The position numbers were made by a program, and so were the translations under genes. From Dehalococcoidia bacterium (GTDB lineage Bacteria > Chloroflexota > Dehalococcoidia > Lucifugimonadales > UBA3495): a stretch of 47,837 nt of DNA. Position 1 is the stretch's first letter; each line of letters begins with the position of its first letter. The notes under the pieces were generated by a model that saw only the letters and a list, made by a program, of their open reading frames with translations, was not told where the DNA came from and searched no databases. Location: NCBI GenBank assembly GCA_022823505.1, contig JAJEIA010000099.1:1-47837 (forward strand), given 5' to 3'. Shown piece by piece: positions 30,700 to 34,794 of the stretch.

Positions 30700-31287
30700 T
30701 CATTCGGGACGGTGGAACTCCTCAACCTGCTGCAGGTAGTTGCGCAGCAGGTCATGTCCCACCGTGGTCAGGATCGACTCGGGGTGGAACTGGACGCCCT
30801 CCACGGGCAGCTCCTTGTGGCGCACGCCCATGATCAGCCCGTTGTCGGTCCAGGCCGTGACCTCCAGGAAGTCGGGTAGCGTCTCCGGATAGATGACCAG
30901 GCTGTGGTAGCGGATGCCCTCGAACGGGTTGGGCAGGCCGGCGAACACGCCCCTGCCGTCGTGGTGGATCATCGAGGTCTTGCCGTGGCGGATCTCACCG
31001 GCGCGGTCCACCGTTGCGCCGTAGGCGTCGCCGATGCACTGGTGGCCGAGACACACGCCCAGCACCGGCAGCTTGTCGCCGAAGTGCCGGATGACGTCGT
31101 TGGAGATCCCGGCCTCCCGGGGCGTGCACGGCCCGGGTGACACCACGATCCCCTCCGGTTGCATCGCCTCGATGTCTTCAATCGACGTCTTGTCGTTCCG
31201 GACCACCTCGACCTCCGCGCCCAGCTCACACAGGTACTGGTAGAGGTTGTAGGTGAAACTGTCGTAGTTGTCGATCAGCAGCAGCAT
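30700..31287 (-). CDS. trpG: anthranilate synthase glutamine amidotransferase (component II)
   Basis: The 195-residue protein is a class I amidotransferase: LLIDNYDSFTYNLYQYL at the start, nucleophile Cys79 in LGVCLGHQCIG, and His168-Pro-Glu170 in GVQFHPESILT. It releases ammonia from glutamine for TrpE in the first step of tryptophan synthesis; a shared role in folate synthesis (PabA) is common and cannot be excluded. Its ATG overlaps the stop of the VOC gene by one base (TGATG), so it is translationally coupled. It is the last gene of the T-box-controlled operon. Confidence 0.95.
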   Translation of the reverse strand: MLLLIDNYDSFTYNLYQYLCELGAEVEVVRNDKTSIEDIEAMQPEGIVVSPGPCTPREAGISNDVIRHFGDKLPVLGVCLGHQCIGDAYGATVDRAGEIRHGKTSMIHHDGRGVFAGLPNPFEGIRYHSLVIYPETLPDFLEVTAWTDNGLIMGVRHKELPVEGVQFHPESILTTVGHDLLRNYLQQVEEFHRPE

Positions 31288-31727
31288 CAGTACAGCTCCA
31301 CCAGTTCCAGCCAGTTGCCGTCCGGGTCCTGGCAGTAGGACGCCTTGCGCACCATGTTGCCCGCGTCGTCGTACATCGGCACCGGCGGCGTGGGGTAACT
31401 GAGGCCCCGGTTGCGGGTGTTCTCGTAGAAGGCGTCGATGTCCTCGACGTAGAAGGCCAGGTGCGCGGCGCGCACGTCGTTCTTGTCGAAATCGGCGTAG
31501 CCGCCCTCGGGGTTCATGTACTGGATGAGCTCCAGCTGGTGGCCGTCGCCCATGTCGAAGAACGCGCCCTTGATGTGGGTATCGGGGAATCCCAACAGGG
31601 TGGTGGGAAACTCGCCGGTGCGTTCGGTGCGCATGGTCAGGGTCAGGCCCAGCACGTCGGAGTAGAACGCGACGGCGGCCTCCAGGTCTTTCACGATAAA
31701 GCCGGTGTGGAAGAATGATTTCAGCAT
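31287..31727 (-). CDS. VOC (glyoxalase/dioxygenase) family protein inside the trp operon
   Basis: The 146-residue protein has two VOC beta-alpha-beta-beta-beta modules: FFHTGFIVKDLEAAVAFYSDVLGL and AHLAFYVEDIDAFYENTRNRGL. Possible metal ligands are His7 or so in SFFHTGF, Glu in HQLELIQYM and Glu in GNWLELVELY. It could be a lactoylglutathione lyase-like or an isomerase-like enzyme. The start at 31727 follows GGAGG by 6 bases. It lies between trpE and trpG, overlapping trpG by one base, so it is co-expressed under tryptophan control. Confidence 0.88.
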   Translation of the reverse strand: MLKSFFHTGFIVKDLEAAVAFYSDVLGLTLTMRTERTGEFPTTLLGFPDTHIKGAFFDMGDGHQLELIQYMNPEGGYADFDKNDVRAAHLAFYVEDIDAFYENTRNRGLSYPTPPVPMYDDAGNMVRKASYCQDPDGNWLELVELY

Positions 31728-31775: not shown

Positions 31776-33236
<1,461 letters not shown>

Positions 33237-33270
33237 GGTTTGATGTCCAATGGTGTTGGGCAGCGACGGC

Positions 33271-33302
33271 AAAACAAAAAGCCCGTCCCCGCGGGACGAG
33301 CC
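33271..33302 (-). terminator. T-box-controlled intrinsic terminator
   Basis: On the minus strand GCTCGTCCC pairs with GGGACGGGC (9 bp, one G-U) around a GCG loop, followed by TTTTTGTTTT. The left arm includes the CGTCCC that alternatively pairs with the T-box motif. Confidence 0.88.
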
Positions 33303-33530
33303 AGTTGGCCGCAATGCCACCCTGCATACGGTGTTCTGCGGGCCTTTAACGTTGCCCCTACGGCCCGTCCTACTCAGTGCAACAACCCTTGGGATTGCAG
33401 CTTTTCGGCGAGCGGCTCCGGGGTCCATTCCGCGTCTGCGCCTGGCGCCGGTTCGCAGCTAACCCGGCTCTCTGGGCCCCGCTGGACGCGTACTAATCCC
33501 CTTCACGGCAGTTCGGTATTCGGATTTGCG
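33271..33530 (-). promoter_or_regulatory. T-box riboswitch, tryptophan type (UGG specifier)
   Basis: Read on the minus strand, the leader shows the T-box motif AGGGTGGCATTGCGG (33323-33309), then CGTCCC at the antiterminator's far side, and a terminator with U-run (33302-33271). Stem I has AGAGAGCCGGG and GCGAACCGG distal elements and the specifier loop GGAATGGACCCCGGAG, in which UGG (33427-33425) is the Trp codon position. CTGAGTAGGACGGG further down resembles the stem III region. Uncharged tRNA-Trp should pair with the specifier and with the T-box, forming the antiterminator and allowing trpE-VOC-trpG transcription. Confidence 0.9.
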
Positions 33531-33536
33531 GCGTTA

Positions 33537-33565
33537 ATTCTATGGCCGCAGGGTTGGGCAGTCAA
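33537..33565 (-). promoter_or_regulatory. sigma70-type promoter of the trp leader
   Basis: On the minus strand TTGACT (33565-33560) and TAGAAT (33542-33537) are exactly 17 bases apart. Transcription would begin near 33530, just ahead of stem I. The target duplication of the insertion sequence ends 9 bases upstream of the -35 box. Confidence 0.75.
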
Positions 33566-33574
33566 CGCCAACCG

Positions 33575-33584
33575 TTTATTCGCG
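33575..33584. repeat. target-site duplication, left (10 bp)
   Basis: The sequence tttattcgcg flanks the insertion sequence and is identical to 34813-34822. Confidence 0.93.
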
Positions 33585-33602
33585 CAGGACGATTGCAAAG
33601 TC
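33585..33602. repeat. IS terminal inverted repeat, left
   Basis: 18 bases, perfectly complementary to 34795-34812. Confidence 0.93.
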
Positions 33603-34745
33603 AGGGTAGATAGCCTGCCAGGTGGGCTATAGTCTGTTGCGGGCGAAAACAGCTGGTCTTGGCGCGCAAAGGCAGGGACATTCGTTGTGGGAGCCACTGG
33701 GCCCGCCGCAAGACATTCAAACTGGCATTGACCAAGGCAGCAAAAATCTCGCCCAACCCAGGACGTCGCAGGGTGTGCCGGTCTTCATCCCAGCTGCGGT
33801 CTTTCACGTGATGCAGACTGTTTTCAACGCTCCAATGCTGGCGAAATAGCCGGAGCAAGGCATGGGGATCACACCGTTCCGGCGGCAGGCTGGTCAGCAG
33901 ATACCAACGCTCCTGGGCCAGCGCGCCGGTGGCTGGCTGGGTTACCGTCTTTGCCACCAGAGCGGCCTGTCTGGCCCCGGGAAACCCCAATTCCTCTCGG
34001 ATATAGTCGGCCAGTTCCGGGCTGGACCACAGTTCTCTCACCTCGATTTGGCCCCCCTTTTTGACACCGTCCTGGCTTGGGGGTCCCCTAACTCCCCTGC
34101 CGCAAACCCAGTGCACAGCGCCCTCTGAGTGGCGGGGCGGTTCCCTTTTACCCGCACCAGGTAGTCCCGACCGTAACTGACGATGGCCTGGCACAAGCCC
34201 TGTTCCGCATACAAGGCGTCCATGGTCAACAGTTCCAATCCCGGATAGCGCTGAAACAACTCCGCCAGATGGCTCCGCAGTACCGCCGGTTCGTACCGGC
34301 GCTCCGCCAGCGGCCACTGGGCCAGGCACAGCTTCAAGTCGTGAGCCAAGACGTTCACCATCGCCAAGGGTTGCCCTCCTGCGTCCCGGGACTGCTTGGC
34401 CCATTTGCCATCCACCGCCGCCGCCAATTCCCCGTCGGACACTACTCCCACCATCCAGTCCAATAATGCCCCCTGCAACTGTGCGAAAGGCACGCCGGCC
34501 AACGCACGGGATATGGTGGTGGCATGGGGAGCCTCTTCACGCTCAAAGCCCAAAGGCTCCCGCAGCATCGGCCAGTGCAACTTCCCGTACCAGGCAATGT
34601 GGGCCATGGTGGTTTGACCGCTCACCAGACCCAATACGGTCAAACGCAAAAGGGCCTGAAAGGGATGCCTCACTCCCCGTCGCCGTCGCGGGTCCGGTAT
34701 CCGCTCCAAACTCTCGAACAAGGAACCGGCCACTGCTGGCGTCAT
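33601..34745 (-). pseudogene. ISAs1-type DDE transposase, one frameshift
   Basis: The N-terminal frame (34745-34038) gives SLFESLERIPDPRRRRGVRHP, Asp112 in AAVDGKWAK and Asp176 in ELLTMDALYAEQ, then KGNRPATQ. The C-terminal frame continues GQIEVRELWSSPEL and contains the catalytic Glu in RQHWSVENSLHHVKDRSWDED. Together they make about 380 residues, the normal length. The two frames meet at A5G6 (minus strand; plus positions 34052-34062), where a -1 step is required. It is either an inactivating indel or programmed frameshifting. ATG 34745 follows GAGGTG. Confidence 0.85.
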
Positions 34746-34794
34746 CTCACACCTCACCGCTGCGTTGCTGCCGTATTTCTACCCCAGACCACAC

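Follow-up and report, generated by a model that had tools for sequence, protein, structure and literature searches.

Trp T-boxes have been known from the Chloroflexi since 2008, when two Dehalococcoides genomes were described as having three T-boxes each, two of the three being tied to tryptophan synthesis (trpE and a trpB-like gene; PMC2494555). PMC7583486 describes the T-box discriminator as two helices, A1 and A2, flanking a 7-nt bulge (UGGN-ACC), together with an RRRxG-Stem III-AA motif. In that account, Stem III is indispensable; an antiterminator lacking Stem III could not bind tRNA appreciably. It names a wobble pair (G-U), with which A2 begins at its base, as the chief sensor of the 3'-linked amino acid.

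We analyzed a 47,837-nt contig from a Dehalococcoidia bacterium, which we will call the window. The initial annotation of this DNA had proposed a Trp T-box ahead of trpE-VOC-trpG, to be checked by a covariance search. That search, by E-value, gave a significant match to the Rfam T-box model RF00230 on the minus strand at 33515-33289 (59.5 bits, E = 1.6e-12, model positions 1-219 of 219). At Rfam's gathering threshold (93 bits), there is no match anywhere in the window. Because this cut-off is an annotation threshold and not a structural feature, we still consider the leader to be a T-box. It resembles the RF00230 family and the Chloroflexi Trp T-boxes in its full-length model match, its UGG specifier, its trpE target, and its phylum; the likeness to the Dehalococcoides Trp T-boxes is by their description in PMC2494555. 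The parts of the operon and of its leader are:

30700-31287, minus strand: trpG, anthranilate synthase component II (PF00117; TIGR00566 at 261.8 bits, cut-off 121.05)
31287-31727, minus strand: VOC/glyoxalase-fold protein, 146 aa (PF00903)
31776-33236, minus strand: trpE, anthranilate synthase component I, 486 aa (PF00425 and PF04715; TIGR00564 at 539.6 bits, cut-off 517.7)
33281-33301, minus strand: terminator hairpin, with T5 tail at 33280-33276 (conserved hairpin)
33309-33323, minus strand: T-box AGGGTGGCATTGCGG, with the 7-nt bulge UGGCAUU at 33319-33313 (RF00230 and pattern search)
33324-33339, minus strand: 16-nt linker at the usual site of Stem III, including AACACC at 33335-33330 (spacing and motif counts)
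33340-33362, minus strand: Stem IIA/B pseudoknot, with F-box CGUUA at 33351-33347 (pairing by eye)
33369-33410, minus strand: Stem II with an AGTA/GAA S-turn-like loop (limits by eye; aligns to Stem II of RF00230)
33412-33509, minus strand: Stem I, with AGTA at 33494-33491 and the AGAGA of the apical double T-loop at 33473-33469 (RF00230 and covariation)
33425-33427, minus strand: specifier UGG (Trp) (sequence and conservation)
33537-33565, minus strand: sigma-70-type promoter TTGACT-17-TAGAAT (promoter scan and conservation)

The stretch 33237-33565 on the minus strand runs from the promoter through the last base ahead of the trpE ATG. All of the leader parts that had been annotated (the UGG specifier, the T-box, its CGTCCC partner, the terminator, and the promoter) are at the claimed places. 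The promoter consists of TTGACT (33565-33560), a 17-nt spacer, and TAGAAT (33542-33537) on the minus strand. It is the sole promoter-like site within 33200-33700 (mean of 0.1 in shuffled sequence), and its TTGAC is invariant across the leaders of the genus (14/14). These 14 leaders, which we use throughout, are the window's and those of the trpE loci L036-L046, L061, and L063.

Downstream, we place the trpG ATG at 31287 from the translation, which gives a one-base overlap with the stop codon of the VOC gene. The VOC protein does not match any NCBIfam model at its cut-off, and solved structures match it weakly. The VOC gene is flanked by trpE and trpG in all 12 genus relatives with enough flanking sequence (L038 is cut off) and in 8/8 near sister loci (L047-L053 and L068; 54-62% identity). 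At E = 1e-8, it was not found in L054-L060, L062, L064, or L066. In four loci (L037, L039, L042, and L045), trpE is separated from the VOC gene by an extra ~0.45 to 1.65 kb.

On the other side of the leader, a DDE transposase (DDE_Tnp_1-associated and DDE_Tnp_1; 33601-34757, minus strand) is split across two overlapping frames and ends ~36 bp short of the trpE promoter, on its upstream side. None of 40 trpE loci has a match to the N-terminal part of the transposase, which suggests a local insertion next to a promoter that is intact. A plasmid origin was considered and rejected, as the leader had no blastn match among 72,556 plasmid records. The suspected Chloroflexota origin of this DNA is borne out by the relatives of TrpE, which are up to 97% identical and come from the SAR202 cluster, Dehalococcoidia, or Chloroflexota, apart from a few distant ones from other phyla.

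T-boxes are routine in this lineage: 58/60 relatives have an RF00230 match with E = 0.001 or better. With E allowed up to 10, RF00230 matches the window's assembly (3.7 Mb in 164 contigs) three times, including the match in the window. The other two, at 102.5 and 84.9 bits, are both upstream of acetolactate-synthase-like reading frames, which we named by eye from their translations. RF00230 is also found in the trpE leaders of 13/13 same-genus genomes. Twelve of these leaders (L106-L117) score from 49.6 to 73.9 bits, and L063 scores 60.4 bits. With the window's leader, all 14 lie below 93 bits (range 49.6-73.9), so annotation at the Rfam cut-off would miss every one of them.

To examine Stem I, we aligned 24 trpE leaders, 14 from the genus and 10 from sister lineages. 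The specifier, TGG at 33427-33425, is within GAATGGACC, and the AGTA at 33494-33491 forms the opposite side of the loop. UGG is at the same position in all 24 leaders and in 9/9 further leaders. Across the alignment, 95.8% of the 552 cells are in standard pairs, and 9 of 23 pairs are changed on both sides. None of 500 shuffles attained any of five covariation measures, a control that is inflated by the relatedness of the leaders. When the partners were slid by 1-3 columns, at most 42.3% of the cells were paired, versus 95.8%. We set aside a run of RNAalifold on the whole 14-row alignment (57 pairs, some extending into the promoter; 4 pairs changed on both sides; covariation term of -0.45).

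The genome has one tRNA-Trp that we could find (ARAGORN, run on 30 of 41 tRNA loci), with the anticodon CCA and an encoded 3' end of GCCA; the same tRNA-Trp was seen at both L084 and L100. The anticodon is complementary to the UGG specifier, and the GCCA end is complementary to the UGGC of the bulge, including the discriminator base. For comparison, 46% of the Trp T-boxes in TBDB are reported to have U, not C, at the bulge position that faces the discriminator base (PMC7778990). The UGG specifier, the genome's tRNA-Trp, and the Trp gene downstream support specificity for tryptophan. Given also the RF00230 match, the Pfam and TIGR identities of the genes, and the covariation of Stem I, this looks like a genuine Trp T-box ahead of tryptophan genes, as initially annotated.

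The middle of the leader is conserved as well. The GAA and AGTA of Stem II are retained in most rows of the genus alignment, and the F-box is kept in 14/14 leaders. In the pseudoknot, 33362-33360 pairs with 33352-33350 (IIA) and 33357-33354 pairs with 33343-33340 (IIB). The IIB pairs are GGGC/GCCC in the window, GGAC/GTCC in L041, and GAGC/GCTC in L042.

At the 3' end of the leader, the terminator scan gave just one site in the stretch. Shuffles of the stretch average 0.7 sites, so this prediction on its own is not beyond chance; the hairpin is kept in 14/14 genus leaders, however, and that conservation is beyond chance. CGTCCC (33298-33293) sits within GCTCGTCCC (33301-33293), and the 5' arm of the terminator, GCUCGUCCC (33301-33293), doubles as the 3' strand of the antiterminator. 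With both pairings written out, the antiterminator is at -7.2 kcal/mol and the terminator at -16.2 kcal/mol; both need 33301-33293, so they are mutually exclusive. Among eight antiterminator pairs that we checked across the 14 genus leaders, six are standard in one leader (L036), seven in eight leaders, and all eight in five. Some T-boxes, mostly from Actinobacteria, act on translation instead (class II; PMC7583486), in which case this leader would hide the ribosome site of trpE rather than terminating transcription. We consider this very improbable: the G+C-rich hairpin is followed directly by T5 about 40 nt ahead of the trpE ATG, the terminator hairpin is present throughout the genus, and Stem I is long.

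What sets these leaders apart is the discriminator. The core CATTGCG was said to be unusual in the initial annotation, and it is: the bulge has AUU where ACC is expected. A looser T-box pattern, AGGGTGGNANNGCG, matches just once across the window, with 0.01 matches expected. In the genus, the bulge is UGGCAUU in 7 trpE leaders, UGGCAUA in 4, and UGGCAUC in 3, and it is never ACC. As AU is present in 14/14 leaders, sequencing error can be ruled out. The sister trpE leaders have UGGCAAC (6/10) or UGGCACC (4/10), and 9/9 further sister leaders have ACC. A pattern that leaves both bases open found ACC in each of 52 other T-box loci from the genus and the order; its three extra matches (L028, L035, and L134) are at loci that also carry an ACC core.

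We compared the genus trpE leaders to 71 rows, of which 68 are distinct (the repeats are L017/L122, L028/L130, and L032/L136). These are the 10 sister trpE leaders, the 9 further leaders, 22 non-Trp T-boxes from the genus (20 of the 24 listed for G001-G013, and the window genome's two), and 30 hits from the order, which were chosen by score and hence lean canonical. AU is found in the bulge of 0/71 comparison rows, versus 14/14 genus trpE leaders. Conversely, AA within 5 nt ahead of the T-box is found in 71/71 comparison rows (sister trpE, 10/10; further leaders, 9/9; genus non-Trp, 22/22; best hits from the order, 30/30) and in just one of the 14 genus trpE leaders (L041). The non-Trp T-boxes that we examined from the same genus have the canonical discriminator.

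The F-box CGUUA and the T-box are 23 nt apart in 12/14 genus leaders, 29 nt in L041, and 53 nt in L063. An F-box-like string could be located in 60 of the 71 comparison rows, and in all 60 the distance is at least 34 nt; in the 8 of 10 sister trpE leaders that could be measured, it is 94-136 nt. These distances are rough: the string search may misplace the F-box, the expression differed by group, and the 11 rows that gave no match are left out of the count. We also compared the longest stem in this region to shuffles, which was of little use: stems beating 57 of 60 shuffles were found in 0/14 genus trpE leaders, 3/10 sister trpE leaders, 3/9 trpS-type leaders, 3/22 genus non-Trp T-boxes, and 6/30 hits from the order. 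Because this search was uninformative, the case for the loss of Stem III rests on the spacing and the AA flank. Going beyond the initial annotation, the altered core appears to go along with a missing Stem III region of the usual kind. The genus leaders depart from the RF00230 canon in scoring below the cut-off (14/14), in having AUN instead of ACC in the bulge, and in missing the Stem III region (12/14).

In its place is a short linker with AACACC. This motif occurs within 20 nt ahead of the T-box in 12/14 genus trpE leaders, versus 0/71 comparison rows; any ACC occurs there in 14/14, versus 10/71. In L063, the order is a hairpin, AA, 17 nt containing ACC, and the T-box, which looks like an intermediate form. 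Other parts of the discriminator are retained or variable: UGGC of the bulge is present in 14/14 genus leaders, helix A1 has an A-G mismatch in 8/14 (including the window), and helix A2 starts with a G-U pair in 11 leaders and with an A-U pair in 3. We do not consider this A2 pair to be a mark of the genus, because many comparison leaders have G-C or A-U there. As in the discriminator described in PMC7583486, helices A1 and A2 surround a 7-nt bulge that begins with UGGN, but unlike in that description, there is no RRRxG-Stem III-AA at the usual place and ACC is replaced. The two parts that changed are listed there as contacting each other. Sequence comparison shows a joint change of these two parts of the discriminator in the leader of a single gene, the other parts having stayed. 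Because all 14 leaders are from one genus, the counts are not independent, and the changes may represent one or two events.

More broadly, the AU-core pattern AGGGTGGCAT...CGTCCC has 15 matches in 14 of 301 genomes of the phylum, a sample in which the window's genome is the sole member of its genus. The 14 loci outside the window lack any Rfam match at E = 0.01, and only the window's locus has one. The pattern AGGGTGGCAC...CGTCCC is found in 85/301 genomes by pattern alone, and some of these rows look like chance.

The Trp T-boxes of the sister lineages (SAR202/Dehalococcoidia) are before trpE or before trpS-trpE-trpG. They share the specifier, Stem I, UGGN, and the terminator with the genus leaders, but they have ACC (or AAC, in 6/10 trpE leaders), they have AA beside the T-box (19/19), and the F-box is at least 53 nt from the T-box in all of the 13 (out of 19) that could be measured. 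Nine sister loci lack a T-box directly ahead of trpE (L052, L056-L060, L064, L066, and L075), and in 9/9 of these there is an RF00230 match farther upstream (36.6-120.4 bits), with a UGG specifier and an ACC bulge. This check was confined to sister loci, as distinct from the trpE relatives that belong to other phyla (L065, L067, and L069-L074). In 8/9, the intervening gene is trpS (TIGR00233, above its cut-off), so that L056-L060, L064, L066, and L075 have a Trp T-box and trpS, followed directly, as far as each locus extends, by trpE and trpG. In L057, L058, and L066, the RF00230 match is just 168 nt long. In L052, a 262-aa open frame without an NCBIfam match at E = 1e-20 lies between the T-box and trpE (2173-2958), and the bulge of the leader has UGGU instead of UGGC.

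We think that the leader is very probably a working antitermination switch for tryptophan with a rebuilt discriminator; tRNA binding, antitermination, and the sensing of aminoacylation would follow from the parts and their conservation, the covariation of Stem I, the complementarity to tRNA-Trp, and the mutually exclusive pairings that we observed. Transcription would start downstream of 33537, and the CCA anticodon of tRNA-Trp would dock onto the UGG of Stem I. If the tRNA is uncharged, its GCCA end would pair with the UGGC of the bulge and stabilize the antiterminator, which would occupy GCUCGUCCC, and trpE-VOC-trpG would be transcribed. If the tRNA is charged, the stronger terminator would form. 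In this genus, the discriminator would have been rebuilt: most leaders have lost the usual Stem III region and the AA flank, AUN takes the place of ACC on the 3' side of the bulge, and the T-box is preceded by the short AACACC linker. We speculate, from co-occurrence only, that the functions of the purine string and of ACC have passed to AACACC.

The lost elements (Stem III region, AA flank, and ACC) are conserved or indispensable according to PMC7583486, and its account of Stem III is evidence against a sensor that works in the usual way. Together with the A-G mismatch in helix A1 (8/14), these losses might indicate a decaying T-box, with an eroded discriminator that no longer responds to tRNA-Trp and constitutive leakage through the terminator; folding and termination would remain. 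But the specifier, UGGC, the F-box, and the terminator are intact in 14/14 leaders, compensatory changes maintain the pairs of Stem I, and the new AACACC is common to 12/14. Plain decay would hardly retain the other parts and fix a new motif, so we prefer a working switch and consider decay improbable.

The linker might also act as an extra lock on the OFF state, with its CACC pairing to the GGUG of the T-box without tRNA, so that the end of the tRNA must displace CACC. A CACC-8 nt-GGUG hairpin is the predicted fold of a short segment in 12/14 genus leaders, and the folding energy of this segment is -5.1 to -6.5 kcal/mol in 14/14 (median of -6.1, versus -1.6 to -3.8 in the comparison groups, for a slightly longer segment). 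However, when the upstream 20 nt are shuffled, a stem of at least 4 pairs over the UG of UGG still forms in 2573 of 2800 cases, and 47/71 comparison rows have one. Because the pairing is not beyond what base composition gives, we keep the lock, attractive as it is, as an unlikely rival idea, somewhat less improbable than decay.

The initial annotation suggested that a Trp T-box here widens the known range, which does not hold, given the Chloroflexi trpE T-boxes published in 2008 (PMC2494555). Our literature search did not find a paper on T-boxes together with SAR202. It also found no T-boxes without Stem III, judging by titles and the starts of abstracts; the main comparative surveys (Vitreschak 2008 and Gutierrez-Preciado 2009) were outside that search. 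So, the Trp T-box in Chloroflexota was already known, and the altered discriminator is what looks unusual. A genus that appears to have dropped the usual parts of the discriminator in one leader, while keeping the specifier, UGGC, and helix A2, would be a natural test of the published account of how the discriminator works. Also, scans at the Rfam cut-off overlook the trpE T-box in all 14 leaders that we examined from this genus.
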